NCBI GenBank assembly: GCA_030447525.1
Contig: JAUJOR010000014.1
Span: 1 to 64,000 of the forward strand
DNA from: Chloroflexota bacterium
GTDB lineage: Bacteria > Chloroflexota > UBA11872 > UBA12225
Direction of reading: 5' to 3'
Length of the DNA stretch: 64,000 nucleotides
The stretch's first letter is position 1; every line of letters starts with the position of its first letter. The notes beneath the pieces were generated by a model. It had not been told where the DNA came from and made no database searches. It worked only from the letters and a program-made list of their open reading frames with translations. The position numbers were made by a program, and so were the translations under genes. Below are positions 5,499 through 57,710 of the stretch, in pieces.

Positions 5499-5689
5499 GC
5501 CGGAGCCATCGCCGTAGGCCAGCCGGCCACGGTATTCCTGCCACCGTCCAAGGTGATTGTTTGCGCCCCTGGGCCTCCGCTGTCCCTTCCTGAGAAGCCC
5601 TGCCCCTCACTGCAGGAGCGGCCTGAGAGCCGTGTTCCAGGAGCGGCACCCCTCCAGGCGGCGAGCCGTTCGTCTCACGCCCGGTGCCC

Positions 5690-6496: not shown

Positions 6497-6520
6497 GGGC
6501 TTGCTCTCCCAGGATCGGTC

Positions 6521-6540
6521 TATTCAGCTAGCGGACTATA
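6521..6540. promoter_or_regulatory. Operator-like site, copy 1 (sigma-factor side)
   Basis: ATTCAGCTAGCGGACTATAG lies about 25 bases upstream of the sigma-factor start codon. It matches copy 2 at 6848 in 15 of the first 17 positions (ATTsAGCTAGCsGACTA). This copy has lost the right half of the palindrome seen in copy 2. Confidence 0.5.
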
Positions 6541-6847
6541 GGAGTGTACCGCTTCTGCGCCCCGGCGTGTATGACGCCGGTCACATTGGCCCCCATTGGC
6601 GTCCCTGGCGCCGGGATGGCATCACCGCGGCGGGCGCCCGTGGTCGAGTGGGGAGGACCGACGGCTACACTCCTCCACGAGGTGCGCCTCAACCTCCACG
6701 GCATCCGCCGGTTGGCCCTGGACCTGGATGCGCAAGTCCTGTAATCCAGCCAGCCAGGGGACGGCAGCGGGTGTGTTGCTGCCGGCCAGATCGGCGCTGT
6801 CATCCACACCCCATCCGCCTGGCCCGGAAGTGGCATACTCTCTAGTA

Positions 6848-10488: not shown

Positions 10489-10602
10489 GCCGCTGGCCAG
10501 GCGCGATCTACGGGCAGGACTTCAGACGAGAGGATCATCGTCTCCAGGGTACCGCTTTCGCGCGTCGTGCGTGCCCCGTGCCCTGCCCCAACACGGGCCG
10601 GC

Positions 10603-11988: not shown

Positions 11989-12006
11989 GCCCTGTCCCTT
12001 TCAGTT

Positions 12007-12054
12007 CTCAATCCCTACGGTCCTCAATCCCTACGGTCCTCAATCCCTACGGTC
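12007..12054. repeat. 16-bp tandem repeat, three exact copies
   Basis: The unit CTCAATCCCTACGGTC occurs three times in perfect tandem (12007-12022, 12023-12038, 12039-12054), followed by a broken fourth unit. It lies about 20 bases upstream of the sulfatase start on its 5' side. Such short arrays often vary in copy number. Confidence 0.9.
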
Positions 12055-37091: not shown

Positions 37092-37202
37092 GACGCCGGC
37101 CAGGGCTCTCAGAGGTAGCGCACAATACGCCTCGGGATACGCCTTAGGGCGGATGTCCGGCCGCCGATCCAGGGGTATGGTGCTCCTGTGGGAGGACAAG
37201 CC

Positions 37203-38182
37203 TTGGTCGTCAGGCCTAATGCCGAAAGAACCGACCTAGTGCCGGAGATGGCCGGCGCGCTGCGGACTGCCCCCGCCGGGCGGCCCCCGGAACCCTACCG
37301 GCTGGTCAGTCGTGCCTACCGGCCGGAGAACACGGTTGTCGAGGTCGGCTCGGTCGGCATCGGCGGCCCGGACTTCGTCGTCATGGCCGGCCCGTGCTCG
37401 GTCGAGAGTCGGGATCAGCTCCTGGCGACCGCCGCCGCGGTGGCCGCCGCCGGGGGGGCGCTGCTGCGGGGCGGGGCCTTCAAGCCTCGCACCTCGCCCT
37501 ACTCCTTCCAGGGGCTGGAGGAGGAGGGACTGGCCCTGCTGGCCGAAGGGAGACGGCGCACGGGGCTGCCGGTGGTGACCGAAGTCATGGAGCCGGGCAA
37601 GGTGGAGCACGTTGCCCGCTTCGCCGATGTCCTCCAGGTGGGCGCGCGCAACATGCAGAACGTACCACTGCTTAGAGCGGTCGGGGGTAGCCGACGACCG
37701 GTGCTGCTGAAGCGCGGGCTCTCGGCCACCATCGAGGAGTGGCTGCTGGCGGCGGAGTACGTCATGCACGAGGGGAACCCGCACGTCATCCTCTGCGAGC
37801 GAGGCATCCGCACCTTCGAAACGGCCACGCGCAACACCCTCGACCTGAGCGCCATCCCAGTGGTCAAGCGGATCAGCCACCTGCCGGTATTCGCCGACCC
37901 GAGTCACGGAACGGGCCACAGCTACCTCGTGGCGTCGATGGCCATGGCGGCGGCGGCGGCTGGTGCGGACGGCCTGATCGTAGAGGTGCATCCGGAGCCG
38001 CAAGCGGCCCTCTCGGACGGGCAGCAATCGCTCACGCCGGCGCACTTCCACAGTCTGATGCGCTCGCTGGAGCGCGTCGTGGCCGCCGTAGACCGGCCGA
38101 TGTGGCGCCCACCGCAGACTACCCGGCGCGCCCGGGCGACGTCATCGCCGGGGCGCGCCGGCGTGCCGGTGGGCCATCGGTG

Positions 38183-38183
<1 letters not shown>
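37203..38183 (+). CDS. aroF: DAHP synthase, shortened regulatory domain
   Basis: 3-deoxy-7-phosphoheptulonate synthase of 326 residues, joining phosphoenolpyruvate and erythrose 4-phosphate in the first shikimate step. Class I-beta motifs are complete: [54 protein letters not shown] and ADPSHGTGH. Only about 30 residues precede the catalytic [14 protein letters not shown], where the Thermotoga-type enzyme has about 70 forming a ferredoxin-like domain for Tyr/Phe inhibition. The start is probably TTG 37203 (GGGAGG eight bases before); GTG 37188 is the alternative. Its stop overlaps the trpE start, so it is committed to the tryptophan operon. Confidence 0.92.
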
Positions 38184-42256
<4,073 letters not shown>

Positions 42257-42260
<4 letters not shown>

Positions 42261-42904
42261 CGCTGGTCAAGATCTGCGGCATCCGCACCCTGGCCGAAGC
42301 GCGGGCGGCGACGCGCTCGGGAGCCGACCTGCTGGGCTTCGTCTTCTCTCCCCACAGCCGGCGCACGGTCACCGCCGCCGCCGCCGCGCGGATCATCCGC
42401 CAGGCCCGTGAGGAGTCGGCGGGCTGGTCTGCCGTCGGGGTATTCGTCGACCCGACCCCGGATGAGGTGGTCGAGATCGCCCGCGTGTGCGCCCTGGACG
42501 TAGTCCAGCTGGCCGGTAGCGAAAGCCCCGCCTGCGTGCGCGCTATGCCCCTGCCGGTGCTCAAGACCATCCACGTGCGCGCCGGCGACGAGCCCCGCGC
42601 GGCCGAGACGGTAGAGACAGACGCCGCCGGCGCCCATCTCTACCTGCTGGACACACACGTCCCTGGCACGCACGGCGGGACCGGACGGCAGTTCGACTGG
42701 CAAGCGCTGCGGACGATCGGGCCGCGCTGCTTGGTGGCCGGAGGCCTGCGCCCGGACAACGTTGGCGCCGCGCTGGCCGCCCTCTCCCCGCGTGGGGTGG
42801 ACGTCAGCAGCGGCGTCGAGCACGCCGGTGGTGGCAAGAACCCGCAGCTTATCCGCGCCTTTCTGGAGAGAGTGAAAGCCTATGATCGCCACATTCACCC
42901 CTAG
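42257..42904 (+). CDS. trpF: Phosphoribosylanthranilate isomerase
   Basis: TrpF of 215 residues, performing the Amadori rearrangement before TrpC. It opens with [12 protein letters not shown] (catalytic Cys), has the substrate Asp in [19 protein letters not shown] and the C-terminal phosphate site [10 protein letters not shown] plus [16 protein letters not shown]. The ATG at 42257 overlaps the trpC stop. The 3' end overlaps trpB by 23 bases, the longest overlap in the operon. Confidence 0.95.
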
Positions 42905-44090
42905 CCCTCCCATCCTGGCCGGCAGCCGCTTCGGAGCGTACGGCGGCCAGTATGTCCCCGAGACGATCGTGCCCGCGCTCGCCGAGCTGGAGCAGGGCTA
43001 CCGGCAGGCGCTGGCCGACTCGACCTTCGTCGAGCACCTCCAGAGCGTCTTGCGCCACTACGTCGGCCGGCCGACGCCACTGTACGAGGCAGCCCGCTTC
43101 GCCCAGCGCGTCGGAGGCGGACCGGTCTGGCTGAAGCGCGAAGACCTGGCCCACACCGGGGCGCACAAGATCAACAACGCCATTGGCCAGGGCCTGCTCG
43201 CCCAGCGGATGGGGAAGCGTCGAATCATCGCCGAGACGGGCGCCGGCCAGCACGGCGTGGCCACGGCCACGGTGTGCGCCATGCTCGGTCTTGCGTGCGT
43301 CGTCTACATGGGCGAGGAGGACACCCGGCGCCAGGCGCTCAACGTGTACCGCATGCGCCTGCTCGGGGCCGAGGTGCGGCCGGTCAGCGCCGGTACTCGC
43401 ACTCTCAAGGATGCCATCAACGAGGCCTTCCGGGACTGGGTGACCGGTATCGAGTCCAGCTACTATCTCATCGGCTCGGCGGTCGGCCCGCACCCGTACC
43501 CCGAGATCGTGCGCACGTTCCAGTCGATTATCAGCCAGGAGGCCCGCGCCCAGGCGCTGACAGCGATCGGCCACCTGCCCCATCGGGTCGTGGCCTGCGT
43601 CGGCGGCGGCTCGAACGCCGTCGGCTCGTTCGCCGCCTTTCTGGAAGACGCTTGCGTCGAGCTCGTCGGCGTCGAGGCCGGGGGCCGCGGGCCTGGACTG
43701 GGCGACAACGCCGCCACGCTGGGGGCCGGACGGCCGGGGGTGCTGCACGGGGCGCACAGCTACGTCTTGCAAGATAGCGGCGGTCAAATCGGCGCCACCC
43801 ACAGCATCTCGGCAGGGCTCGATTACCCCGGTGTCGGGCCAGAGCACGCCCACCTCAAGGATTCCCGCCGCGTGCGCTACCACGCCGTAGAAGATGTGGG
43901 GGCGCTGGATGCCTTTTTCGCCCTTACTGAGAGCGAGGGCATCATGCCCGCCCTGGAGCCGGCGCACGCGTTGGCCTGGGTACAGGCCAACCGCCATCCG
44001 GGCGTGACGCTGGTCACCCTCTCCGGACGGGGGGACAAGGACATCCATACCGTGGCCAGCGCCTCCGGGCGCCAGGAGTACCTGGCATGA
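42882..44090 (+). CDS. trpB: Tryptophan synthase beta chain
   Basis: PLP enzyme of 402 residues joining indole and serine. It shows [12 protein letters not shown], the PLP Lys in [30 protein letters not shown], the phosphate-binding [10 protein letters not shown] and the C-terminal [12 protein letters not shown]. This is the TrpB1 type that works with TrpA. It starts within trpF and overlaps trpA by four bases. Confidence 0.97.
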
Positions 44091-45013
44091 TCCCGCTAGC
44101 CCCGCTTTCGTTGGCTTCCCCAACCCCAGCGTCTCCCCCCACCCCAGCGGCCCCTCCTACGCCTGGCCAGGCCGACGGGCGCCTGGCGCGTAGCTTCGAG
44201 CGCCGGCGCGCCGGCGCCACGTGCGGCCTGTTCCCCTACCTCACGGCCGGCTTCCCGGATGTCGCCACGGACCGGGCGCTGGCGGCGGCCGCCCTCGAGG
44301 CGGGAGTGGACGGATTCGAGATTGGCGTGCCCTTCTCCGACCCGCTAGCGGACGGCGCCACGCTGCAGCGCGCCAACGCCCGCGCCTTGGAGGGGGGCGC
44401 CACCCTGGACACGGCCCTGGATCTGGCCGGCTACATCCGCCAACGCGCGCCGGATACGCCGGTGGTGTTGATGTCCTACTACAACCCGCTCCTTCAGCGG
44501 GGGCATCGTCAGGTGGCCGCCGATCTGGAGGCCGTCCAGGCCGATGGCGTGATCGTCGCGGACCTCCCGCCCGAGGAAGGCGCCTCGCTCCACCAGGGGC
44601 TCGCCGAGCGCAGCCTGGCCTTGATCCCGATGCTGGCCCCCACCAGCCATACCGCCCGCGTCCGCGCCGTGGCCGCGCTCGATCCGGCGTTCGTCTACTG
44701 CGTGGCGCTCGTGGGCGTCACCGGCGCCCGCCAGGACCTCTCCCAAACCCTGGGTGACTTCCTGGGTCGGGTGCGGGCTGAGCTGTCCGCCCCGCTGGTG
44801 GTCGGCTTCGGCGTCGCCACGCCTGAGCACGTGCGGCGCGTGGCGCAGCTAGGGGCCGCCGGCGTCATCGTCGCCAGCGCCCTGGCCGACCTGGTAGAGC
44901 GCTCGCCTGAGCCGGTGGCGGCCGCTCGCGCCTACGTATCGTCTTTGGTGGTCGCCGCACACGGGCGCAGCTCAGACGACCTGAAGGATCAGGGCCTCCC
45001 GGAGCACCGCTGA
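44087..45013 (+). CDS. trpA: Tryptophan synthase alpha chain
   Basis: TIM-barrel TrpA of 308 residues that releases indole from indole-glycerol phosphate. Catalytic Glu lies in [15 protein letters not shown] and the second acid in the same motif; TAGFPD and [10 protein letters not shown] complete the active site and phosphate site. A Pro/Ala-rich N-terminal extension of about 30 residues precedes the usual start, and its ATG overlaps the trpB stop. The stop (TGA 45011-45013) overlaps the ATG of the ATP-grasp gene, binding tryptophan synthesis to that ligase. Confidence 0.95.
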
Positions 45014-46356
45014 TGGACGAGGCACGCGCGCGGACCAATCGGAAGCGGCCGGCATTCTTGCTGCTGGCGAAGCTGGCCCCGCTGACAAGCCACCCTCTGT
45101 TTCTCAAGGAGCTGCGGCAGCGTGCACTGGCGCCCCTGCTCGTGACCGACATGCTCCCCAGCGGCGCCGGTGGGCCGTCGGAGCTGGGTCGTCAGAACCC
45201 GGTGCTGGCGGGACTCGAAGACGTTGCCGTGCTGGACGGGGCGCACCACCTGCCCATCCTCCAGCGCGTCGCGGCCTGGGCGGAGGAGTACGCCATCCGT
45301 GGCACGCTCTGCTTGGGAGAGGTGTTCGTGGAGGCCGGTGGCCTGGCAGCCGACCTGCTCGGGCTACGGCACGCCGGTGTGCGCGCCGCCCGCGTCTGTC
45401 GGAACAAGCATCTCCAGCGACTGTACCTACAACCCTGGAGTCCGGCGAGCCGGCTGATCACGCCGCAGATGCGGGTGACATCCACTGGGAGCGCCAGGGC
45501 CGACTTTGCGGCCGACTTCTCAGCCGGCCCGGCGATCCTGAAGCCCGTGGCGAGGTTCGCGAGTTCCGGCGTCCAGCAAGTGGCCGATGCGCACGAGCTT
45601 CGCCGGCGCTTCGAGGACTATGCGCCAGACGAGATGCTCCTGCTGGAGACTAAGGTCATTGGCCGGGAGATCTCGGTCGAGGCGCTCGTCCAGGACGGCG
45701 ACGTCGTGTTCTCTGGAATCACGCAGAAGTCGACCAATGAGAGCGAGGGCCGGCACTTCGTGGAGACAGCCCATACCATCCCCGGCGGGAACCTATCGTC
45801 CACTGAGGTCGCCGCCGTGCTGGCGGCGAACAATCAGGTGCTGTGCCGCCTGGGTTTCGAGCACGGGGTGGCGCACGCCGAGTACCGGGTCACCGCAGAC
45901 GGCGTGCCCTACTTGATGGAGATCGCGTGTCGCGCGCCGGGCGACGGCATCCTGGCCCTGTACCACCTGGCCACCCTCCACTCCCTGGAGGCTGAGCTGA
46001 TCAAGTGCGCCCTCGGGGAGCCGGTGGCGTACCCGCAACCGGTGCGCTACGCGCGGCAGGTGTATCTGCCCCACCCCACCGGCCGGCTGATGGACGTCCG
46101 CGTCGCGAATCTGCCTGGAGTGGCGCCGTACTGGGTGCCCTGCCACGGACGCTGGCCAGACATCGAGGCCGGCTCCGCCGGCGATCCGGCCCGACTGCGG
46201 CAGCTCCTCGTCCTCAAGGAACGCGGGGCGGCGCTCTGCGAGCTGCACGACTCGTTCGACCGCGCCGTCACCTTCTTGATCGATGCCCCGACGGCGGAGG
46301 CGCTGGACGGCCTGGAGGGGCACGTCCGCCAGTCGGTGAGCATCGTCACGGGCTAG
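45013..46356 (+). CDS. ATP-grasp carboxylate-amine ligase (coupled to trpA)
   Basis: ATP-grasp ligase of 447 residues. An N-terminal pre-ATP-grasp region is followed by RNKHLQRLYL, the ATP-binding AILKPVARFASSGV (Lys), LLLETKVIGREISVEALVQDG, and the metal-binding end VAHAEYRVTADGVPYLMEIACRAPGDGI. The C-terminal lobe resembles carnosine-synthase/L-amino-acid-ligase relatives. Such enzymes form an acyl phosphate and join it to an amine. Its ATG shares a base with the trpA stop, so it is made together with tryptophan synthase, and two further ATP-grasp genes face it. A tryptophan-derived substrate is a fair inference. No part of primary tryptophan synthesis needs it. Confidence 0.88.
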   Translation: MDEARARTNRKRPAFLLLAKLAPLTSHPLFLKELRQRALAPLLVTDMLPSGAGGPSELGRQNPVLAGLEDVAVLDGAHHLPILQRVAAWAEEYAIRGTLCLGEVFVEAGGLAADLLGLRHAGVRAARVCRNKHLQRLYLQPWSPASRLITPQMRVTSTGSARADFAADFSAGPAILKPVARFASSGVQQVADAHELRRRFEDYAPDEMLLLETKVIGREISVEALVQDGDVVFSGITQKSTNESEGRHFVETAHTIPGGNLSSTEVAAVLAANNQVLCRLGFEHGVAHAEYRVTADGVPYLMEIACRAPGDGILALYHLATLHSLEAELIKCALGEPVAYPQPVRYARQVYLPHPTGRLMDVRVANLPGVAPYWVPCHGRWPDIEAGSAGDPARLRQLLVLKERGAALCELHDSFDRAVTFLIDAPTAEALDGLEGHVRQSVSIVTG

Positions 46357-46430: not shown

Positions 46431-47867
46431 TCACGGGGTGGCATCCGCCGTCGCGTTCGCCACCCCGTGGCTCGCCACGCTGATCACGTTGTGTGGCGCG
46501 TCACGGCGCAGCGCGGCCTCTTTCAGCGCCACCTCCAGGCCGTCCAGGATGCGGTAGCAGTCACGCTGCAGGGCGAGGGGGTGGGAGCCCCGCAGCAGGA
46601 GGGTGCCGGCGTAGTTCCGCGTCCCGGCCGTAGACGAGAACACCGGCATCGGCGATCCGGAGGGCCGCGTCTGGCTCCAGACGACCTCGACCTGCGTGTC
46701 CGGTCCGGTGAGTCGCTCCCAGTCGACGCGATCCGGCAGGAACTCGGGATGCGCTGTCCACGGCCTGCCCTGTGCATCGGTAGCGATCATCATCAGCGAG
46801 GCGACGGCAGTCCCCGAGCCCGTCGACGTTAGCATCGGTTCCGGGATCTGGAGGGGCTCGCCCAACAGCGCCCGCGTCAGCAGATCGATCAGGTCAACCT
46901 GGAACGCCTCGTAGACGAGGCGCGGGATCATCGCCCCACCCAGCCGGGCGGCGTTCTCTATGAGGCACAGACCGCCGTCGCGCTGTAGCTTCACCTCGGT
47001 GTGGGTGCCGCAGAAATCCAGGCCCAATGAGTCCACCGCGGCACGCGCCAGGGCCTCGATGCGTCGCTGCTTCTCCGCCGAGAGCACTGTGGGCGCATGG
47101 AAGCTCAGCTCCACAAACGGCGGGATCGTCGGCAGCCGGGCGGTGATAGAGATGGGAAAGTAGCGGCCGCCAACCACCACTCCCTCGACGCTCACGTAGT
47201 CGCCGTAGCCCTCCACGTCGTACCACGACTCGGTAGTGGCTTCGATGATCTCCTCGGCGATGAACTGCGTGCCCCGCCCCAGGGACATGCAGTCGTGCAG
47301 GCGAATGCGGTCCATCTCCTCGATGGCCGTCGTCGCGGTACGCCAGGCCGCGCCGAGATCGGTGGTCTCGTGGATGATCACCTGGCCCTGTGAGCCCGCC
47401 AGCCAGGATGGCTTGAGCAGGAACGGCTTCCGCAGCTCCCCGCCGGCACGGTGCAAGTCGGCGAGCGACCGGACGGGCACGAACGCCGGGCCGGGCAGCC
47501 CGTGTTGCTGCCAGATAGATCGCATCTCTACCTTGTCTCGCGAGCGGACGACGTTGGGGCCCGGTCCGCGCAGGCCGAGTTGCTGGCAGGCGGCGGCCAC
47601 GGCGACGATGGCGAACTCGCTGAAGGCCACCACCGCGTCCGCCCGCACCTGGCGCGCAGCGTCGACGATGGCATCTGGCATTACCGCGTCCGGGCGCAGA
47701 CAGCGCAAGGACGTGCACCAACCGCGGAGCAACGGTTCCACCGCCGGCGAGGGAGGGGCAAAGAGCAGCGCGTGGACGTCCCCGTGCCGGCGGAGGCGCG
47801 GGAGCGCGAACTCCGGCGGGGGCCCACCCAGGGCCGGGATCACATAGAGGATACTCGCTCTGGACAC
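46431..47867 (-). CDS. ATP-grasp ligase, last gene of the kynurenine-type operon
   Basis: ATP-grasp protein of 478 residues. Segments include NVVRSRDKVEMRSIWQQHGL (start of the ATP-grasp fold), FLLKPSWLAGSQGQVIIHE (ATP Lys), QFIAEEIIEA and YVSVEGVVVGG, and the metal site CGTHTEVKLQRDGG with LCLIENAARLGGAMIP. The GTG start at 47867 directly follows the stop of the cyclase-family gene, with GGGAGG six bases before it. It is only moderately like the other two ligases here, so the three probably have different substrates. It ends the minus-strand run and faces the trpA-linked ligase. Confidence 0.88.
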   Translation of the reverse strand: MSRASILYVIPALGGPPPEFALPRLRRHGDVHALLFAPPSPAVEPLLRGWCTSLRCLRPDAVMPDAIVDAARQVRADAVVAFSEFAIVAVAAACQQLGLRGPGPNVVRSRDKVEMRSIWQQHGLPGPAFVPVRSLADLHRAGGELRKPFLLKPSWLAGSQGQVIIHETTDLGAAWRTATTAIEEMDRIRLHDCMSLGRGTQFIAEEIIEATTESWYDVEGYGDYVSVEGVVVGGRYFPISITARLPTIPPFVELSFHAPTVLSAEKQRRIEALARAAVDSLGLDFCGTHTEVKLQRDGGLCLIENAARLGGAMIPRLVYEAFQVDLIDLLTRALLGEPLQIPEPMLTSTGSGTAVASLMMIATDAQGRPWTAHPEFLPDRVDWERLTGPDTQVEVVWSQTRPSGSPMPVFSSTAGTRNYAGTLLLRGSHPLALQRDCYRILDGLEVALKEAALRRDAPHNVISVASHGVANATADATP

Positions 47868-48653
47868 TCACTCACCTCCCTGCTTGATTTGCGAGCGCTC
47901 GACGAGCGCGAGAACGCGCGCCGGGCTACCGGAGCCACCGACGATGGGCAGCGGCCCGGTGATGACAACCGCGCCCTGTGGCGGCAGTCGCTTCAGATTC
48001 TGCAGTTGCGTCAGGCCGTACTTGTTGGCCCCCTGGAAGTACCAGTGGCAGGGCCACGGCTGCTCGGTGAACGCCATCGCCTGACCGGCATCGGTGCCCA
48101 CGGTCTCCACCCCCAGACCGATCAGGGACGTCTCCTGCGCCAGCCACCTGGCGCAGTCCGGGGCCACACCCGGGGTGTGGCCCCCGTTGAGGAACTGCTC
48201 GGCGTCCCCGCTCCTGCCGTCCCAACCGGTGCGGTAGAGTAGCCAGCCGCGCTCCGGCAGCGGGCCGTGCTCGGCTTGCCACGCCTCAACGTCCTCGCGC
48301 CGGAGCAAGAAGTCGTGGTCAGCGGCCGCGGCCGCGGAACAGTCCAGCACCGCCGCCGGGGCCACCACCCGCCCCGGTGGCACGGCGGAGACGTCGTCCA
48401 GGTGCCGGCCGGACGGCCAGTGCACCGGGGCGTCGAAGTGCGTGCCGGTGTGCTCAGAGAGCCTGATGTTGTTCCAGTACGCCTCGCCGGCCGAGTCGTA
48501 GCGGCTGATCACCTGGCGCTCGAACGGCCACGGCTGACCGTGCGAGGGGGGCAGACGGATGACCGGCGTGCCCTCGGAGAGCGGGGCCGTCAGATCGATC
48601 ACCTCCACCGAGCCGGCGGCGAGGCCGGCGACGAGATCCGTCAGCAGCGCCAC
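47868..48653 (-). CDS. Cyclase-family metal hydrolase (kynurenine formamidase/isatin hydrolase-like)
   Basis: Hydrolase of 261 residues with the family metal motif HTGTHFDAPVHW (HxGTHxDxPxH) after an ISRYDSAGEAYWNNIRLSE segment, and LIGLGVETVGTDAGQ later. This family includes bacterial kynurenine formamidase (KynB) and isatin hydrolase; the length and the conserved CHWYFQGANKYGLTQL stretch lean to the longer, isatin-hydrolase-like branch. Between two TDO-type enzymes and a kynureninase-like enzyme, removing the formyl group from N-formylkynurenine is the obvious role, but another ring-opening amide hydrolysis is possible. GTG 48653 is chosen; an upstream in-frame ATG at 48698 lies inside the previous gene. 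Confidence 0.85.
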   Translation of the reverse strand: MALLTDLVAGLAAGSVEVIDLTAPLSEGTPVIRLPPSHGQPWPFERQVISRYDSAGEAYWNNIRLSEHTGTHFDAPVHWPSGRHLDDVSAVPPGRVVAPAAVLDCSAAAAADHDFLLRREDVEAWQAEHGPLPERGWLLYRTGWDGRSGDAEQFLNGGHTPGVAPDCARWLAQETSLIGLGVETVGTDAGQAMAFTEQPWPCHWYFQGANKYGLTQLQNLKRLPPQGAVVITGPLPIVGGSGSPARVLALVERSQIKQGGE

Positions 48654-48657
48654 GGCA

Positions 48658-49644
48658 TCACCCCCTGACGAGCACGGTGCCGGCCACGTCCCCGGCAACG
48701 TCCGGTGCCGGCTCGATGTCGTAGACGGGGGTGATCCAACGGCCGGCCGCGGTGCCTGCCCGCGCGGCGCGGTCGTAGAGGTCTTGCAGCCTGGCCGTCA
48801 ATGGCCCCGGCAGGCCATCCCCGACCGGCACCCGATCGACAGACACGACCGGCAGAATCTCGGCCAGGGTGCCGCAAAGGAAGACCTCCTCGGCGACGTA
48901 TAGCTCCGTCCGATCGACCTCTCGCTCCTCAACCACGAGCCCGAGCTCGTGGCGGGCCAGGCTGGCCACGGTGGCCAGGGTGATCCCCTCGAGGCTACCG
49001 CTGGTGGCCGGCGGGGTGATCAGCCTCCCATCGCGGACCATCACCACGCAGGAGCCCGGGGCTTCGGCGATGCTCCCCCGCTGGTTCAGGATCAGCGCCG
49101 TGTGATAGCCGTTTCTGACCGCCTCCTGGTGCGCCAGCCGGTTGTTGAGGTAGTTGGCGCCCGACTTGATCCGCGGGGGCATCGTATCGTCACTGATGCG
49201 TCTCCAGGACGAGACGCAGATGGGCACACCGCCCCGGTAGGCATCGGAGCGGGGCTTAGGGAGCGCGGTGATATGGACGCCCGTGTCCTCTGTGAGGCCC
49301 ATCGTGTCGAAGTGCTCCCCGATGCCAAAGAAGGCCACCACTACGATGTGGACGTCATCTCGGAACGCATTGACCCGCAGGAGCTGCAAGCACGCCTCGC
49401 GGAGTGCAAGGTCCGAGTACGCCACCTGCAAGCGCACGGACTTCATGGACCGCCGCAGACGTTGGAGATGGTCCTCCAGGCGGAAGGCGTAGAGCTGTCC
49501 GGCGCTCGGTGACCAGTAGGCTCGAATGCCCTCGAAGACATTTGCCCCCCAGAACGCCCCTTGCGTGCGCCCGTGCAGAACGCACGCCTCCCATGGAATG
49601 ATCTCGCCGTTCATCCAGGCGTAAGGTGGTGTCGCTGACATCAT
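48658..49644 (-). CDS. Class IV PLP aminotransferase (BCAT/D-amino-acid type)
   Basis: PLP enzyme of 328 residues. It has the class IV start AWMNGEIIPWEACVLHG, FEGIRAYW, the PLP Lys160 in RIKSGANYLNNRLAHQEA, the IAEAPGSCVVMVRDG Glu segment and LEGITLATVASLA for phosphate binding. It resembles branched-chain aminotransferases but sits 13 bases after a flavin hydroxylase and before a kynurenine-type hydrolase, so it probably acts in the pathway: transaminating a kynurenine or aryl-alanine side chain, or making a keto-acid building block. Aminodeoxychorismate lyase relatives share the fold. ATG 49644 or 49641 is the start. Confidence 0.88.
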   Translation of the reverse strand: MMSATPPYAWMNGEIIPWEACVLHGRTQGAFWGANVFEGIRAYWSPSAGQLYAFRLEDHLQRLRRSMKSVRLQVAYSDLALREACLQLLRVNAFRDDVHIVVVAFFGIGEHFDTMGLTEDTGVHITALPKPRSDAYRGGVPICVSSWRRISDDTMPPRIKSGANYLNNRLAHQEAVRNGYHTALILNQRGSIAEAPGSCVVMVRDGRLITPPATSGSLEGITLATVASLARHELGLVVEEREVDRTELYVAEEVFLCGTLAEILPVVSVDRVPVGDGLPGPLTARLQDLYDRAARAGTAAGRWITPVYDIEPAPDVAGDVAGTVLVRG

Positions 49645-49657
49645 CGCGGTGTGCCCC

Positions 49658-51346
49658 CTATCCCACCGTTGTCCCGGTCCCGGCTGTTGTCCCCATGGTG
49701 GCGTGGGCGCGGAAGGCGGCCCCACTGCGCCGCGCGTCTTCGTCCTTTGCCGGGAGCGCGTCGGCGCAGCGGCGGAGTGCCTCCGCGAAATCGGGAGGGC
49801 GCTCGGCGTCATGGCCGGCGGCGATGTGCCCGTCCGGGCGCACCAGGAACCAGGCCGGTCGCGACGCGCCGTAGGTGGCGCGCAGGCGCGGGTCGTCGTC
49901 GTGGACGACGCACGCCAGTGGCCAGAGATCATCGGATCCCTGGCCCGGCGGCAGGACAACGTAGAGCCGGAAAGGCACCGAGACCGGCCGAGCCTGCGCC
50001 TGCTCCGCGAAGCGGCGGGCCGCCAGCGGATCGGCGCCGAAGTACAGGCCGACGAACTCCCGCCCCAGGAGCTGGCGCAGCCGCCGGCGCTGGCCGGCCA
50101 CTGAGACCGCCCCGTCGGGCGCAAGGCTTCCCACCAGGGGGCTACCGGCGCGCCGGTCAACGATGGGCGAGTCCGCGTAGACGTACGGCTCCGCCATCCG
50201 CCCGCTGTTTACGTGGCGGCGCAGAAACTTGAGCGGCGGGGCGACGCGCAGCAGCGTGTCGCGCGCCCAGCGACGCAGCGGGCTCGGCGGCACCATGAAG
50301 CGGATGGTGGCCTCGGTCACGCGCAAGTTTTCCCGGGCGGCGGCGTACCGCTCCACGTGGTAGCTCTCCAGCAGCGTGCTGTTCGCCCGGCCCTTCAGCA
50401 CCAGGTGGAGCTTCCAGGCCAGGTTGTCCACGTCCTGGATGCCACTGTTCATGCCCCGGGCGCCATACGGCGGCAGGGCGTGCGCGGCGTCGCCCGCCAG
50501 GAAGACGCGGCCGACGCGCAGGCGGGCCGCCACGCGCTGGTTGAATCGGTAGGTGCTCAGCCAGTCGATCTCGTAGGGGATGCTCCCGATCACGGCGCGG
50601 ATGCGCCGGTCGAGCTGGTTCGTCCTCCGTTCAGCCTCGACGTCGGTGTCCGGCGCGAGCTGCCAATCGATTCGCCACACGTTGTCCGGCTGGGCGTGGA
50701 TGACCAGCTGGCGGCCCGGGTTGAAGGGCGGGTCGAAGTGGAAGTGCCGCTCGTGGGCGAACGGCAGGTCGGCCCGGATGTCCGTGATCAGGAAGCGGTC
50801 GCCGTGGCGGTAGCCGATCCACTCCACGCCCAGCAAGCGCCGCACCTCGCTGTGAATGCCGTCGCAGGCGACCAGGTAGCGGAATCGCATCTCTTGCGTC
50901 CCGTCAGGGGTGGTGACCGTCACCGTCACGCCCTGGTCGCCCTGCGCCACGCCGGTGACCCGGTGCGACCAGAGCACGGTGGCCAGCGGGACACTCTCCA
51001 GCCGCTCCAGCATGATCTGCTGGGTGCGGTACTGGGAGATATTGATGAAGGGCGCGAAGCCCCCCGTGCGTGGGAACTCGGTGGTGGAGAGCACCTTGCC
51101 ACGGACGTAGGTCCGCGCCACGTGCCAGCCGATCCCTTCCGCGGCGATGGCCTCGGCGCACCCCACCTGACCAAGGATCTCGACGACGTCGCCCTGGATG
51201 CAGCAGGCGCGCGACCCCTGCTTACGCAAGGCCGGCTCCGCCTCCAGCACCAGGCTGGGGACGCCGAACGAGGCCAACCGCAAGGCGCACGCCAGGCCGG
51301 CAGGCCCCGCGCCGACGATGCCCACAGGAACGTCCACGTCGCTCAT
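49658..51346 (-). CDS. Flavin-dependent aromatic hydroxylase with thioredoxin-like tail
   Basis: Class A flavoprotein monooxygenase of 562 residues. The FAD motif is VGIVGAGPAGLACALRLASFG, the DG motif YLVACDGIHSEVRRLLG, and the GD motif VFLAGDAAHALPPYGARGMNSGIQD. The last about 150 residues (SPLVGSLAPDG, EFVGLYFGAD, AWFLVRPDGHIAAG) form the thioredoxin-like C-terminal domain seen in MhpA and RdmE-type hydroxylases rather than in kynurenine 3-monooxygenase. It would hydroxylate an aromatic ring using NAD(P)H and oxygen; kynurenine, anthranilate or a derivative fits the context. Its ATG overlaps the stop of the TDO-like gene (ATGA), a sign of coupled function. Confidence 0.9.
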   Translation of the reverse strand: MSDVDVPVGIVGAGPAGLACALRLASFGVPSLVLEAEPALRKQGSRACCIQGDVVEILGQVGCAEAIAAEGIGWHVARTYVRGKVLSTTEFPRTGGFAPFINISQYRTQQIMLERLESVPLATVLWSHRVTGVAQGDQGVTVTVTTPDGTQEMRFRYLVACDGIHSEVRRLLGVEWIGYRHGDRFLITDIRADLPFAHERHFHFDPPFNPGRQLVIHAQPDNVWRIDWQLAPDTDVEAERRTNQLDRRIRAVIGSIPYEIDWLSTYRFNQRVAARLRVGRVFLAGDAAHALPPYGARGMNSGIQDVDNLAWKLHLVLKGRANSTLLESYHVERYAAARENLRVTEATIRFMVPPSPLRRWARDTLLRVAPPLKFLRRHVNSGRMAEPYVYADSPIVDRRAGSPLVGSLAPDGAVSVAGQRRRLRQLLGREFVGLYFGADPLAARRFAEQAQARPVSVPFRLYVVLPPGQGSDDLWPLACVVHDDDPRLRATYGASRPAWFLVRPDGHIAAGHDAERPPDFAEALRRCADALPAKDEDARRSGAAFRAHATMGTTAGTGTTVG

Positions 51347-52680
51347 GCGTGTCCTCGCACACTGCTTGTTTGCGGGGTCTGCACCGCGGCGCCCGCCTCG
51401 GCCGGCGCCGAGTGGGGGGCCACGCCGTTCTCCCCCTCCGCCAGGGACGGGAATACGGGGATCTCCTGGACTGACGCCAGGTACGGCGGCCCCTGGGTGT
51501 AGCCCGTGCCGGTGCGCTCGCCGAGCATCCGTACGGCGAGCCGGTAGTGCGTCCGGCGCCACTGCAGCAGGGTGGACGCGAACCGCGTCATCTCCTGCTG
51601 AAGGGCATCCGCTTCACGCGGTCTGAGCCGGCCAGCGGCGCGGGCCGCCCCGAACGCGCCGTCGAGGGTCGCCTGGCCGGCGAGCACCCGCCCACGGACC
51701 TCGGGCACGGAGTGATAGGCGATCGAGTCCAGGCGGGACGAGTCGGGCTGCCGGCACAAGGACTCGACGATCTTGTAGTTGCGCGACTGAATCGCGCTGG
51801 CACCCTCAGTAAAGGCGCGGAACGTGCGAAACGCCTCCACCTGCATCGTCGCCAGCAACGAGAACAAAGGGGCCGCCTCGCGCAGGGCCGTGTCGGCCCC
51901 ACCGACGCAGCGGAGCGCCAGGTCGGGCGCGCCGTCCGCCAGCGCCGTTACGGCGGCCCGGATCTGGACGGCCACCAGGGCGAAGGTGCTCTCGAAGGAC
52001 TGCAACACGCGGATGAACTGATACTCGTCGTGGACGACGTACACCGGCAGCATGCTCAACCGCAAGGTGCACCGCTCGCCGGGCCCAAGGGCGGCGGCGA
52101 CGTTGGCCCACAGTCGGCCGGCGCCGGCGAGCGGATCAGCCTCGGCCACCTCGGCCACGCCGTCGCTCAGCCCCAGGCGCTGACCGGCCGGCCCGGCGGC
52201 GCGCAGGCCCAGGAGGCAGCGCTTCACGGTCGTGCGGGTATCCGGGCGCATCTGGGGCAGGAGCCCCGTACGGTGCGTCGCCGCGTCCACCTCGAAGCGT
52301 AAGGCGTCTGCGATCAGCTGCAGGAAGAGACGATCGTAGCGTCGCTCGGCAGCCGTGACGTCCTGCGGCAGGTCGTCCACCGCGGGCAGCGGGAGGAGAC
52401 TGAGCGCCAGGTAGGTTGGGTAGTCGTAACGGCCGTCCCGCTTGTCCAGGGCGGCGTCGAGAAAGCGCTCCAAACGCTGCACGCCGCTGGTCGAGCCGCG
52501 TACCCCCGGCAGCATCGCTCGGACGCCGGCCAGCGCCTCGAGGAGATTGGCGTCCACAAAGTGTTTCCCCACTCGGTGGAATGCCTCTAGCACGGCCTCG
52601 TAGGGGAACGCTTCGGCGTCTCGGTGGGCTAGCCAGTCCCTGAGCGCTTCCGCTTGACCGGCGCCTTCTTCTACCTTCAT
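51343..52680 (-). CDS. Divergent tryptophan-2,3-dioxygenase-superfamily heme protein
   Basis: Protein of 445 residues. The C-terminal 260 residues match the TDO fold: HDEYQFIRVLQSFESTFALVAVQ in place of the distal-His helix, EAFRTFRAFTEGASAIQSRNYK for the FR..GFQS..YR substrate segment, and QWRRTHYRLAVRMLGERTGTG for the proximal heme His (about 378) and GTGGSSG loop. The N-terminal about 180 residues have no match I can name. Distal-site residues differ from true TDO, so its chemistry may be hydroxylation, peroxygenation or rearrangement, as in the TDO relatives PrnB and SfmD. It follows a 259-base gap, where an internal promoter may lie. Confidence 0.8.
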   Translation of the reverse strand: MKVEEGAGQAEALRDWLAHRDAEAFPYEAVLEAFHRVGKHFVDANLLEALAGVRAMLPGVRGSTSGVQRLERFLDAALDKRDGRYDYPTYLALSLLPLPAVDDLPQDVTAAERRYDRLFLQLIADALRFEVDAATHRTGLLPQMRPDTRTTVKRCLLGLRAAGPAGQRLGLSDGVAEVAEADPLAGAGRLWANVAAALGPGERCTLRLSMLPVYVVHDEYQFIRVLQSFESTFALVAVQIRAAVTALADGAPDLALRCVGGADTALREAAPLFSLLATMQVEAFRTFRAFTEGASAIQSRNYKIVESLCRQPDSSRLDSIAYHSVPEVRGRVLAGQATLDGAFGAARAAGRLRPREADALQQEMTRFASTLLQWRRTHYRLAVRMLGERTGTGYTQGPPYLASVQEIPVFPSLAEGENGVAPHSAPAEAGAAVQTPQTSSVRGHA

Positions 52681-52939: not shown

Positions 52940-54088
52940 TCAGTCCGGCCGCGTGCGCCGGTAGCGCGCTATGCCCGCGCACACCGCGTCCACATCGGCC
53001 GTGGTGTTGTAGTAATGGAAGGACAGCCGCGCGACGTCACACCGCGGGCTGACCACGATCCGCCGGGAGGCTAACCACGCGGCCAGAGCCGGGGCGTTCG
53101 CGTCGATCAGGGCGACGTGGGCGCCCCGGTCTGCCGGCGCGACCGGCAGCTGCAGCCGCTCCCCTTGCGCGGCGAGCTGCCCGGCGGCGTACGCCACCAG
53201 CGAGGCGACGTGCCGCTGCACGGCCCGGCGGTCGAGACGGTTGAGCAGGGCCATGCCGGCGTTGGCGGTATAGAGGGCGGGCACGGCCGGCGTCCCGGTC
53301 TCCAGGCGTCGGGCCTCATCTGGGAAGTCCAACCGCTGCGGATCGAACGCCAGGGGATCGACGCGCCCGTACCAGCCCGTGAGACGGGGCGCGCGATCGG
53401 CGTCAGAGGGCGACCTGACGTAAAGAAAGGCCACTCCAGGGAGGCCCAGCAGATACTTGAGCGTGCCCGAGACGAGGTAGTCGCACCCCAGCTCGGTGAC
53501 GTCCACCGGCACGACGCCGGCGGCCTGGTAGGCGTCCACGAAGACGCGCGCACCGGCGCCGTGCGCGGCCGCGGCCACGTCCGCTACCGGGAGCCGGGCC
53601 CCGCTGCGGTAGGTCACCAGGGGGATCGAGACCAGCCCGGTGCGCGCGTCGATCTCGGCCAAGTAGTCCCCCGCCCGCACGGTGTCCTCGCGCTCTCGGA
53701 CGTACACCACCCGGGCTCCGCGTGGGCGCTGGGCGAGCCAGACGTGCGCCACCGAGGGGAACTCAGCCACGGTGGTGACCACTGTGGGCCGGCTGGCCCA
53801 CTCCAGCGCGGACGCGACCTGGTAGGCGCCGATGGAGGCGTTGGGGACGATCGCGATCTGGTCTGGCCGGGCCCCGATGAGGGCCGCGAAGCGCGCCCGC
53901 GCCTCGCTGACCTGGGCCTCGAACTGTGGCCACGGCACGCCGGGCTCGGCCATGGTGTCCAACATCCGCGTCAGCGCCGCGTCGAGATCAATCGACCGAG
54001 CGCCAAGGCTGCAGCTGGCCAGGTAGACCGTCCCCTCCAAGGCGGGGAAGCGGCTGCGGAACGCGGCCGCATCCATCCCTGGCACCAT
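52940..54088 (-). CDS. Kynureninase-like class V PLP enzyme
   Basis: PLP enzyme of 382 residues, fold type I. Family features: YLASCSLGARS at the N-terminus, the PLP-Asp segment VFVDAYQAAGVVPVDV, the Schiff-base Lys211 in VSGTLKYLLGLPG, GWYGRVDPLAFDP, and ADRGAHVALID. These follow the kynureninase plan (GWFG, RGSHV, SAGAVPVDL), although the usual CTYKYLNGGPG and the DLAHS His are altered, so a cysteine-desulfurase-like or other beta-gamma lyase role cannot be excluded. Cleaving kynurenine or 3-hydroxykynurenine to the anthranilate plus alanine fits its place, six bases after a tryptophan dioxygenase. The ATG at 54088 has GGGGTGA before it. Confidence 0.8.
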   Translation of the reverse strand: MVPGMDAAAFRSRFPALEGTVYLASCSLGARSIDLDAALTRMLDTMAEPGVPWPQFEAQVSEARARFAALIGARPDQIAIVPNASIGAYQVASALEWASRPTVVTTVAEFPSVAHVWLAQRPRGARVVYVREREDTVRAGDYLAEIDARTGLVSIPLVTYRSGARLPVADVAAAAHGAGARVFVDAYQAAGVVPVDVTELGCDYLVSGTLKYLLGLPGVAFLYVRSPSDADRAPRLTGWYGRVDPLAFDPQRLDFPDEARRLETGTPAVPALYTANAGMALLNRLDRRAVQRHVASLVAYAAGQLAAQGERLQLPVAPADRGAHVALIDANAPALAAWLASRRIVVSPRCDVARLSFHYYNTTADVDAVCAGIARYRRTRPD

Positions 54089-54094
54089 GGCGCG

Positions 54095-54817
54095 TCACCC
54101 CCCGCCGGCCGGCGCGCCCGCGCTCATCGGGCCCGTCTCCGTCAGCACGGTGCGGACGCGCCACAGCTCCGGAAAGAACTTGTGGCTGATGAGGCCGCTC
54201 AAGACGTCTACCGGCGTGCCCTTGGTGCCCACCACCTGGTGCCCGATCGTCCGCGTGGCGACCTTGTAGTGCCGCACTCGCCACAGGGCGACGCGCTCGT
54301 CCCACTCGATCATGGCTTCGGCCAGCCGGTAGAGCGGCGCGTTGGGGCTGCCGCGGTAGAGCTCGACGAGGTCGACCCGGCGTTCGCCCAGGAGCGCGGC
54401 AAAGACCTGCCCCAGCTCCTGGCTGGCCCGCTTCACCTCGCGCCAGCCGGGCGATTCGAAGCCCGAGCCGTGGCCGAGCACCGTCCGGATCAGCTGAAAC
54501 GTCCAGGGGGCGAGATGGCGCAGCATCTCCAGCTGGCCGGTGATCAGCTCCATCCCCAGGGACGCGCGGGCCAGCAGGTGTACCGCGCTCTCGATCTCGC
54601 CGGCGTGGATGTCTCGCGTCGCCTGCTCCAGCTCGAAACAGGCGTGCTTGAGCCACAGCTCAGTGGACTGGTGCACGGTCTGGAACAGCAGCTCGTCTCG
54701 GTGCACCATCTCCTGCGGCCGGCGCTGCAGTGAGAGCAGGGTGTCTGTCCGCATGTACCGGGCATAGTCCGTATCCCCCTCCCCAGGTAACACCGGCACC
54801 GCATAGTTGATCGTCAA
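54095..54817 (-). CDS. Tryptophan 2,3-dioxygenase, short form
   Basis: Heme dioxygenase of 240 residues that would open the indole ring of tryptophan to N-formylkynurenine. It keeps the distal His49 in FQTVHQSTELWLKHA, the carboxylate-binding Arg in LIRTVLGHGSGFES and the proximal heme His183 in WRVRHYKVATR. It is shorter than the usual 280-300, lacking part of the middle helices, and the GTGGSSG loop reads GTKGTPVD. TTG 54817 is taken as start (GGAAGGA eight bases before); the frame up to 54997 lies over the preceding gene and has no TDO character. It is probably the entry enzyme of the pathway. Confidence 0.87.
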   Translation of the reverse strand: MTINYAVPVLPGEGDTDYARYMRTDTLLSLQRRPQEMVHRDELLFQTVHQSTELWLKHACFELEQATRDIHAGEIESAVHLLARASLGMELITGQLEMLRHLAPWTFQLIRTVLGHGSGFESPGWREVKRASQELGQVFAALLGERRVDLVELYRGSPNAPLYRLAEAMIEWDERVALWRVRHYKVATRTIGHQVVGTKGTPVDVLSGLISHKFFPELWRVRTVLTETGPMSAGAPAGGG

Positions 54818-54878
54818 CGCAGTCGTCCTTCCGAGTCGGTTGTCAATTGCAGCCGTCCTGCCGGCGCGAGTGGCCACG

Positions 54879-56186
54879 TCAAGCGATGGGGGTGAGGTGA
54901 TGGACGGCAGCCGGCGCGGGCCTTGCCACGGCGACCGTGACGCGGGCGGCGGCCTGCTGGGCCAGAGCCAGCGCCTCGCCGGCCGTCGCGGCGCCAACCC
55001 GGACGTAACCCACCCGATCCCACGAGCTGCGCAGCTCGCGCGTCCGGTCCCCAGGCTTGATCAGGACGTCAGCACTCAGGAAGCCGGGAACCTGCCGCAT
55101 GTCATCGGCGCCCTGGACGCTCAGCACCTCGCCCGGCTCGACGCGCAAGAAGCACACGGCCGCCCCGGCGACCGGCTCCCGCGGCAGCATTGCGGACACG
55201 TCTGCGCCGCGCATCACCGCCTCGAACAGCGCCACCATGTCCGTTCCCCAGGCGTAGTCGATCAAGTCGACGATCCCGTCGCCCGGCATGCGTCCGGCGC
55301 ACTCCACCAGAAACGGCACCCCGTGGGAGACGATCCACTCGCAGTGCACGAAGCCACTGCCGAAGCCGGCGGCGTCGAGGACACGGCGCGTCTGGTCCAC
55401 CAGGAGCTCCCAGAGCCGGCCGGGGATCTGGGCCGGCACCGCGTGGCCCATCTCGATCGGCCGCGGGCCGGGAAAGAGCCGCTTCTGCGTGACGTTCGAG
55501 AACAGCGGCACGCCCTCGCGGACGAGCATCTCCACACTCAGCTCGTCCCCCCTGACGTACTGCTCGGCGAGCATCCGCAGGGGCATCTGGCGATCCGGCA
55601 GGTTCACGCCTTCGTCCTGCTCCAGGCACTCCTGCCACCCCGGCTCGACCTCGGAGAGGTGGTACAGCACCCGGGTGCCCACCGAGGCCTGCCGATTGGC
55701 CGGCTTGAGAACCACGGGTCCGCCCTGCGCGCGCATGAACTCCCGCACTTCGTCCGGACCGGCGACCGGCTGCGACCGCGGATTGGCGACGCCAGCCTGG
55801 CCCGTGACCTGGCGCAGTCGCCACTTGTCGCGCAAGACCCCGGCCGCGTCCGGCCCGGCGCCGGGCACGCCGTAGAGGGCCGCCAGCTGCGCCGCGAAGG
55901 GCACGGCGTACTCCACGCACGGCAGCACCGCCACCGGGCGGAGCTCGGCGTAAGTACGGTGGAAACACTCGGCCGCGCCCGGCAGCTGGTACTCCCAATC
56001 AATCAGCCGGTCGGCGATCCCGGCGCCCGCGAGCTTGGTGTGGGCGCCCCGCTTGCGCGCCACGGCCGGTTCCTCGATCACGAGCACAGGACCCTCGGCC
56101 CGGGGTTGTTCCAGCACATGCAGCCAGGCGATGGAGTACCCCACCAGAAGGAGCGGGCGGCCCGGCGGGAGAGTCACACTCGGCAT
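54879..56186 (-). CDS. ATP-grasp ligase, first of the minus-strand operon
   Basis: ATP-grasp protein of 435 residues. It has LRDKWRLRQVTGQAGVANP, the ATP Lys in PVVLKPANRQASVGTRVLY, MLAEQYVRGDELSVEMLVREG and the metal end FVHCEWIVSHGVPFLVECAGRMPGDGIVDLI. The AGRMPGDGI and ACRAPGDGI endings make it closest to the trpA-linked ligase on the plus strand. The start overlaps the MFS gene by 13 bases. Likely job: ATP-driven amide formation between two amino-acid-type building blocks, upstream of the dioxygenase in the transcript. It has no carrier domain or NRPS partner nearby. Confidence 0.88.
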   Translation of the reverse strand: MPSVTLPPGRPLLLVGYSIAWLHVLEQPRAEGPVLVIEEPAVARKRGAHTKLAGAGIADRLIDWEYQLPGAAECFHRTYAELRPVAVLPCVEYAVPFAAQLAALYGVPGAGPDAAGVLRDKWRLRQVTGQAGVANPRSQPVAGPDEVREFMRAQGGPVVLKPANRQASVGTRVLYHLSEVEPGWQECLEQDEGVNLPDRQMPLRMLAEQYVRGDELSVEMLVREGVPLFSNVTQKRLFPGPRPIEMGHAVPAQIPGRLWELLVDQTRRVLDAAGFGSGFVHCEWIVSHGVPFLVECAGRMPGDGIVDLIDYAWGTDMVALFEAVMRGADVSAMLPREPVAGAAVCFLRVEPGEVLSVQGADDMRQVPGFLSADVLIKPGDRTRELRSSWDRVGYVRVGAATAGEALALAQQAAARVTVAVARPAPAAVHHLTPIA

Positions 56187-57538
56187 TCCTTTGCCCTCCG
56201 AGATGATGGCGTGGCCCCGGGCGAAGAAGCCCGCAGCCCGCTAACAGCCGCCGCCGCGGACAGCGCCGCCACGGCGCCGCAGACGGCCCAGATGCCGTTG
56301 CCCAGGGCGTTCCATAGCAGCACGCCGGTGGGTGCCCCGAGGGCGCCGCCGAGCCCGAACATGGCGTTGGCCGCGCCGATGTACCGTCCCCTGGCACCCG
56401 CCGGGGCGACCTTGCCGGGATGGGCGAGCATGGTGGGTCCGCTGATCATCTGGCCCGCCACACCTACCGTGGTGGCCACGAGCAGCAGCGCCACGCCGCC
56501 GGGGAGACCGAACGCCGCCAGGCCCACGCCCAGGAGGACAATGCCCAGGCCCGCGGCCCGTTCCGGCCGCCAGTGCTGTACGTACCTCGTCACCAGCAGC
56601 TCGCAGGTGATGACTAGCCCGGCAGACAGCGCCAGCACCCAGCTGTAGACGACGGTCGGATAGGCGCCGCTGGTGATCTTCAGCGGCAGAACGGCGAAGT
56701 ACTGCACGTAGACCAACACGCTGGTGAACATGGCGAACAGGTACAGCAAGAAGCGGCCGTCTCGGAGCAACGTCAGGTAGCCGGCCGGCGGCCGGAGGGC
56801 GTCCCGCGCGGCAGGCGCCGCCGCCGGCACGTCCCGATCCCGAGGCAGGAAGAACACGGCGACGGCGGCGTAGGCCACGGACGTGAGACCATCGGCCCAG
56901 AACAAGAGGTCCCAGGACACCCTCACCAGCCCTGCCGCCAGCAACGGCCCCACCACCCCACCAGAGTTAAGGGCAATGCGGTACATCGAGAACACCATCG
57001 CCCGCCGCGCCGCCGGGGTCAGGTCTGCGAGCAACGCCGCCGCCGCCGTCCGACACGCCTGCGCCATGGCGCCGGTAGCCGCCACCACCACCAGCAGGGC
57101 CGCGTAGGTCTCCGGGCGACCCAGAACGCTCACCGAGACGGTCAGGACGGCCGCCGACGCCATGGAGATGATGATCGTCGACCGCCGCCCCAGCCGGTCG
57201 GCCAGCTCGCCGCCAAAAATCGTGCCCAGTACGGCCCCCAGGCCGTACGCGCCGAGGCCGAAACCGGCCTGGCCCTGGGTCAGTCCGGCCTGCACCAGGT
57301 AAAGCACCAGGAACGCCTGTACGAAGGCGCCCAGCTGGTTGACGAACACGCCGAACAGCAGGAAGCCGGTAGGGGCCGAGGTTTCCCGGAGGCTGGTCAG
57401 GACGCCCGCCTGGCGTCCCTCGCCGCCGGGCGCCGAGACCGCCGGGAGCGGCGTCGCGGCGGAGGGCGGCGTGCCACCCAGCGGACCGGCCACCGCCGGA
57501 GGGGCGTTGGGACGCACCAGACTGCTCGATCCGCTCAC
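56174..57538 (-). CDS. MFS transporter, probable product exporter
   Basis: Major facilitator protein of about 454 residues with twelve predicted membrane helices after a disordered Pro/Ala N-terminus of about 45 residues. The loop 2-3 motif GGELADRLGRRSTIIISM is the MFS motif A (GxxaDrxGrr). PAGARGRYIGAANAMFGLGGALG fits the second half. The GTG at 57538 is chosen because GGGTGATG precedes it; ATG 57562 is an in-frame alternative. As first gene of the metabolic run it is the natural candidate to export the product and give self-protection. Drug-efflux MFS relatives are the closest in look. Confidence 0.88.
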   Translation of the reverse strand: MSGSSSLVRPNAPPAVAGPLGGTPPSAATPLPAVSAPGGEGRQAGVLTSLRETSAPTGFLLFGVFVNQLGAFVQAFLVLYLVQAGLTQGQAGFGLGAYGLGAVLGTIFGGELADRLGRRSTIIISMASAAVLTVSVSVLGRPETYAALLVVVAATGAMAQACRTAAAALLADLTPAARRAMVFSMYRIALNSGGVVGPLLAAGLVRVSWDLLFWADGLTSVAYAAVAVFFLPRDRDVPAAAPAARDALRPPAGYLTLLRDGRFLLYLFAMFTSVLVYVQYFAVLPLKITSGAYPTVVYSWVLALSAGLVITCELLVTRYVQHWRPERAAGLGIVLLGVGLAAFGLPGGVALLLVATTVGVAGQMISGPTMLAHPGKVAPAGARGRYIGAANAMFGLGGALGAPTGVLLWNALGNGIWAVCGAVAALSAAAAVSGLRASSPGATPSSRRAKECRV

Positions 57539-57710
57539 GTTTTCATCACCCGGATGGCCCACTTGCCCGGTGCGGACTCCGCCACGTGGCCGGCCCGCGC
57601 CGATGGCTCCACCCTAGCCCCGCCCTCGGCCGAGCGCATCCGTGACAAGACGTAGCCGGAGGCGTATCTGCGTGGCCCGGCGGTACCCGGGCCCGGGCGC
57701 GGCGGCGCGC

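Follow-up and report, generated by a model that had tools for sequence, protein, structure and literature searches.

HemeX, a divergent tryptophan dioxygenase-like protein with a predicted helical N-terminal half and a candidate role in kynurenine oxygenation

The window analysed here is a stretch of 64,000 nucleotides from contig JAUJOR010000014.1 of a Chloroflexota bacterium. It contains a gene cluster whose minus-strand genes occur in the order ATP-grasp ligase, tryptophan dioxygenase (TDO), kynureninase-like enzyme, HemeX, flavin monooxygenase, class IV aminotransferase, formamidase-like cyclase and ATP-grasp ligase. HemeX is the name given here to the gene of interest. The genes at the locus are as follows.

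37188 to 45013, plus strand: DAHP synthase, TrpE, TrpGD, TrpC, TrpB and TrpA, a complete tryptophan operon
45013 to 46356, plus strand: ATP-grasp ligase (domain match)
46431 to 47867, minus strand: ATP-grasp ligase, BacD-like (domain matches)
47868 to 48698, minus strand: cyclase-family hydrolase, probable N-formylkynurenine formamidase (domain matches, recurring neighbour)
48658 to 49641, minus strand: class IV aminotransferase, branched-chain type (domain matches, recurring neighbour)
49658 to 51346, minus strand: group A flavin monooxygenase, PRK08132 family
51343 to 52680, minus strand: HemeX, divergent TDO-superfamily protein of 445 aa with an ATG start
52940 to 54088, minus strand: class V PLP enzyme, kynureninase-like (weak match, below the curated cut-off)
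54095 to 54997, minus strand: TDO, short type, with distal His and Arg117 kept (TIGR03036, 132 bits, also below the 390.7 required)
54879 to 56186, minus strand: ATP-grasp ligase with an L-amino acid ligase C-terminal domain (domain match)
56174 to 57562, minus strand: MFS transporter

The tryptophan operon may be a dedicated supply of tryptophan for the cluster; the genome carries another trpA on contig 15. LuxR and BTAD-domain regulators are also close by. The true start of the TDO gene is probably nearer 54820. A search of the rest of the genome with the kynureninase model gave no further match. The aminotransferase is conserved within the operon and has no evident role in the kynurenine pathway.

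The HemeX reading frame had been proposed from the sequence without a strand. It is confirmed as coding, on the minus strand. Its GC content by codon position is 0.74/0.51/0.86, and its differences from the nearest relative (120, 85 and 217 at positions 1, 2 and 3) are in excess at third positions, which together indicate a real gene under selection. Its stop shares an ATGA overlap with the start of the flavin monooxygenase. The sole Pfam match is PF03301 (Trp_dioxygenase), with an E of 6.5e-12 that exceeds the family cut-off, and no FAD-binding domain was found by Pfam. The NCBI curated TDO equivalog, TIGR03036, gave 57.2 bits, which misses its cut-off of 390.7. The sequence-only reading of a second, divergent TDO-superfamily protein next to a TDO is borne out by the PF03301 match, the predicted TDO fold and a neighbouring TDO with its distal His.

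The predicted structure agrees with this assignment. The AF2 model of the whole protein has a pLDDT of 92, and a Foldseek search with it ranked TDO first (E about 1e-5, target TM 0.64-0.72), followed by the 2-oxindole-forming monooxygenase MarE (E 3e-4). The fold and the proximal His are those of the HDAO superfamily. PrnB and SfmD had been suggested as relatives; the nearest known structures are instead TDO and MarE, with PrnB at only E 0.8 in the profile search. Residue correspondences were taken from an alignment to Xanthomonas campestris TDO (XcTDO) and 49 aligned family members. The following features of HemeX, all on the minus strand, can be located.

52033 to 52680: N-terminal half, residues 1-216, an all-helical conserved domain without Pfam or PDB relatives
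52408 to 52428: YDYPTYL, residues 85-91, possible counterpart of TDO Y24xxY27L28 (hhalign second alignment)
52003 to 52005: Leu226 codon, at the position of TDO distal His55
51817 to 51819: Arg288 codon, counterpart of the carboxylate-binding Arg117 of TDO, invariant in 49 of 49
51547 to 51549: His378 codon, counterpart of the proximal heme ligand His240 of TDO, invariant in 49 of 49
51490 to 51510: GTGYTQG loop, residues 391-397, counterpart of TDO GTGGSSG

In XcTDO we take His55 to be the distal His and indole-NH base, Arg117 to bind the carboxylate and His240 to be the proximal heme ligand. The stretch QWRRTHYRLAVRML (HemeX residues 373-386) holds His378, which aligns with His240, so the proximal heme His motif seen earlier is upheld. 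The distal His helix is altered as had been noticed, with His55 replaced by L226. The GTGGSSG loop, also described as altered, is changed to GTGYTQG and partly kept. Tyr113 is replaced by F284. The XcTDO residues that are kept are Phe51 (F222), Arg117 (R288), Ser124 (S295), Tyr131 (Y302) and Thr254 (T392). Invariant in the 49 members are H217-D218-E219, F222, R224, E230, F284, R288, S295, Q298, S299, H378 and the Gly loop. At the distal position, subfamilies A and B have Leu and subfamily C has Ile or Val; His does not occur there. Lys303 was considered as a replacement for the carboxylate Arg and rejected, as XcTDO chain numbering puts Arg117 at the invariant Arg288.

By this alignment, HemeX has lost the distal base and retained the amino-acid anchor of TDO. 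The kept Arg288 makes an alpha-amino acid such as kynurenine a likely substrate, and the loss of the indole base makes kynurenine the best candidate. Anthranilates, which had been proposed beside it, are less likely. IDO, like HemeX, has no distal His, so the loss is also compatible with tryptophan. HemeX could then oxygenate tryptophan or N-formylkynurenine, by ring hydroxylation ahead of TDO or by a MarE-like monooxygenation, with the flavin monooxygenase as the kynurenine hydroxylase. This is unlikely in our estimation. The tryptophan-binding Arg and Ser are retained, the flavin monooxygenase is next in the operon with its ATGA overlap, and MarE, which is structurally close to HemeX, acts as a monooxygenase on a tryptophan (PMC11904535). 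However, the indole-NH base is gone in 49 of 49 members, MarE retains the distal His that HemeX does not, and several loci with TDO and HemeX lack the flavin enzyme.

The N-terminal half, called unexplained in the sequence-only reading, is a conserved domain, present in all three subfamilies with G38, Y90, E130 and R154 invariant, and has no detectable homologue. The 180 extra residues described earlier are nearer 215 ahead of the HDE core, although the number comes close once a possible YxxYL at 87-91 is allowed for. The first 214 residues modelled alone are all helical (AF2, pLDDT 93). No Pfam family was matched, PDB profiles gave no match except designed helical repeats, and Foldseek with this half alone gave none below E 0.87. 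It was thus rejected as a known domain, and it is not a swap for any domain known. The full model found no match among viral structures, nor did PHROGs give one.

A possible link to TDO lies in the YDYPTYL stretch. A YxxYL stretch acts in cis in IDO but across the subunit boundary in TDO, where Y24xxY27L28 of one subunit lines the active site of its neighbour. In MarE the corresponding N-terminal stretch also lines the neighbouring subunit's active site (PMC11904535). The HemeX stretch is collinear with the TDO N-terminus, with weak statistics (P about 0.014-0.03, hhalign second alignment); no other part of HemeX matches that terminus, and its Y90 is invariant in 49 of 49. The match is no more than suggestive; if it is real, HemeX may be seen as a TDO that is extended at its N-terminus and carries an insertion of about 110 residues between YDYPTYL and the core.

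About 50 full-length relatives were collected, nearly all actinobacterial. A single genome scan gave nine, at 46-55% identity, from Microbispora, Actinosynnema, Cellulomonas, Streptomyces, Actinomadura, Pseudonocardia and Geodermatophilus, and further searches added about 40. Members are rare: in a set of 396 genomes from the actinobacterial phylum, 3 reach E 1e-40, with the centre genome counted. In the tree, the family stands apart from TDO with a support of 99 and divides into subfamilies A (29 rows, including the window), B (10) and C (9). The window protein pairs with one from a genome of the same phylum (G233) within an otherwise actinobacterial clade, and this nesting suggests lateral transfer. 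No characterised member, including any biochemistry, was found in the literature searched, which covered the HDAO superfamily in part. A deeper relative in genome G180 (L013:1396-2679) has Ile at the distal column and His in the adjacent column. It adjoins a tryptophanyl-tRNA synthetase-like gene (L013:344-1351), which may be a resistance copy or a paralogue that activates an amino acid.

The neighbours of HemeX can indicate the pathway in which it takes part. TDO adjoins HemeX in 23 of 27 subfamily A loci (G233 counted), and an operon of TDO, kynureninase-like, HemeX and formamidase genes was found in about 20 loci. Besides the window, 18 loci have the order TDO, kynureninase-like, HemeX, flavin monooxygenase, (aminotransferase), formamidase. 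At L007, the HemeX neighbour is a kynureninase that exceeds the curated cut-off, and a TDO-family gene lies 16 kb off. Nine cassettes (L005, L010, L072, L073, L074, L083, L096, L097 and L103) also encode, ahead of TDO and an ATP-grasp gene, a 519-aa protein with no Pfam or NCBIfam match (at L010, positions 5154-6710); it is missing from the window operon.

HemeX could also be imagined as a regulatory or structural partner of the adjacent TDO with no chemistry of its own. The proximity of TDO in most subfamily A loci and the missing distal base would fit such a pseudo-enzyme. We regard it as very improbable, as the proximal His, Arg, Ser and Gly loop are invariant despite wide divergence and HemeX occurs at several loci where no TDO is close by.

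A flavin monooxygenase profile that detects the enzyme in all 18 cassettes found nothing in L006, L007, L008, L069, L075 and L100; its match in L009 was weak. Five of the genomes that hold these seven loci have no flavin-enzyme match anywhere at E 1e-60. The flavin monooxygenase was thus rejected as an obligate partner; HemeX is the constant oxygenase and the flavin enzyme is dispensable. The same loci bear on a further reading, that HemeX oxidises kynurenine or 3-hydroxykynurenine by a second hydroxylation, an oxidative cyclisation or an N-oxidation, and not by 3-hydroxylation. The chemistry of the superfamily is varied (PrnB, for example, rearranges its substrate), and the operon often includes another hydroxylase and an aminotransferase. 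L069 and L075, on the other hand, have TDO, a kynureninase-like enzyme and HemeX with no other hydroxylase detected by homology, and a kynurenine route there would make sense only with a hydroxylation. Such an oxidation seems rather improbable.

Subfamily C adjoins TDO in L080, L087, L091, L092 and L095. A Methyltransf_2 gene is alongside in 8 of 9 loci, together with TDO in L080, L091, L092 and L095. This pairing fits 4-methyl-3-hydroxyanthranilate, whose synthesis needs a kynurenine hydroxylase. No flavin hydroxylase of the window class was found near 8 of the 9 loci, and the match near L095 is marginal (E 8e-5). L079 has no TDO nearby; beside a methyltransferase it has a dihydroxybenzoate-AMP-ligase-like (aryl-acid AMP ligase) gene and a multicopper oxidase (L079:4296-5987 and 10549-12030), possibly for a phenoxazinone-type pathway. 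Subfamily B carries the same pocket residues. Its loci L086, L070, L077, L078 and L104-L106 gave no detectable homologue of TDO or kynureninase, and L086 has pyridoxal decarboxylase-like and acyl-CoA dehydrogenase genes. The substrate of subfamily B may be different.

Taken with the pocket, these genes point to a His-ligated heme oxygenase that acts after TDO and adds oxygen to the ring of kynurenine, most likely giving 3-hydroxykynurenine. We give about even chances to this proposal, which draws on sequence, predicted fold and gene context, together with the view that the family is its own subgroup of the TDO/HDAO superfamily with its own N-terminal helical domain. The narrower proposal, of a non-flavin kynurenine 3-hydroxylase family that depends on heme and derives from a TDO relative by loss of the indole base and gain of a new N-terminal domain, falls a little short of even. 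Tryptophan would be opened by TDO and L-kynurenine freed by the formamidase. HemeX could hold kynurenine above a heme on His378, gripping its carboxylate by means of Arg288, Thr392 and Ser295; using O2 and a reductant or H2O2, the enzyme would add a single oxygen to the aromatic ring, with 3-hydroxykynurenine as the most likely product. The kynureninase-like enzyme would release a hydroxyanthranilate-type acid, to be built into a product by ATP-grasp ligases in the window or by NRPSs elsewhere. HemeX would thus stand one or two steps downstream of TDO. The flavin enzyme of the window may carry out a second modification or share the work with HemeX. Ring hydroxylation is the best candidate reaction because SfmD and TyrH hydroxylate tyrosine-type substrates. 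The earlier suggestion that HemeX probably acts on a later intermediate beside a genuine TDO is supported: that TDO keeps its distal His, and the operon recurs in about 20 loci.

Several observations count against kynurenine as the substrate. The window and most subfamily A operons hold a flavin monooxygenase that could hydroxylate kynurenine, leaving HemeX another step. The class V enzyme of the window is a weak kynureninase match, subfamily B has the same pocket with no TDO or kynureninase detected, and in L006 and L008 neither was found within 10 kb of HemeX.

If true, the proposal would extend the few His-ligated heme aromatic oxygenases by a new reaction and a new domain architecture, and provide a second, unrelated solution to kynurenine hydroxylation, which is usually done by a flavin enzyme. 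This hydroxylation is the branch point toward 3-hydroxyanthranilate, phenoxazinones and benzodiazepine antibiotics, and the HemeX subfamilies would supply it in natural-product clusters without the flavin enzyme. A missing kynurenine hydroxylase has been noted for an actinomycin cluster (PMC6521150). The family also marks many uncharacterised clusters, including the tryptophan-supplied one of the window, beyond the actinobacterial majority.

Compared with known systems, HemeX shares with TDO (PF03301) the heme-binding core fold, the proximal His, the carboxylate Arg, the Ser, the Phe, most of the Gly loop and a collinear order of motifs. It differs in the change of distal His to Leu and of Tyr113 to Phe, the GTGYTQG loop, the long pre-core region and the low TIGR03036 score. 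MarE resembles HemeX in fold, natural-product setting and carboxylate Arg. MarE is shorter and has His55 and an SLGGR loop, its His55 and Arg118 matching the TDO residues (PMC11904535); the His55 and SLGGR features of this subgroup are absent from HemeX, which has Leu226, GTGYT, 445 aa and kynurenine-pathway genes. The SfmD subgroup has a heme thioether Cys and a bis-His ligand set. SfmD and TyrH (LmbB2 type) are probably functional analogues in their His-ligated heme and hydroxylation of aromatic amino acids. Both oxygenate substrates of the tyrosine type (PMC11791213), and a reference within PMC9570651 treats SfmD as a hydroxylase. Neither gave a sequence match to HemeX in the profile search of PDB chains or appeared among the 50 best fold matches listed. 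The anthramycin-type 3-hydroxyanthranilate and its 4-methyl form are made with TDO, formamidase, flavin kynurenine 3-monooxygenase, kynureninase and a C-methyltransferase; PBD clusters obtain plain anthranilate through chorismate and use the kynurenine route where a 3-OH is required (PMC4194701). The HemeX-family clusters hold much the same gene set, with HemeX in the place of the flavin enzyme. As a protein, flavin kynurenine 3-monooxygenase (for example anthramycin ORF23) is unrelated to HemeX, which lacks its FAD-binding domain; the two would have in common the proposed reaction and the place in the pathway.
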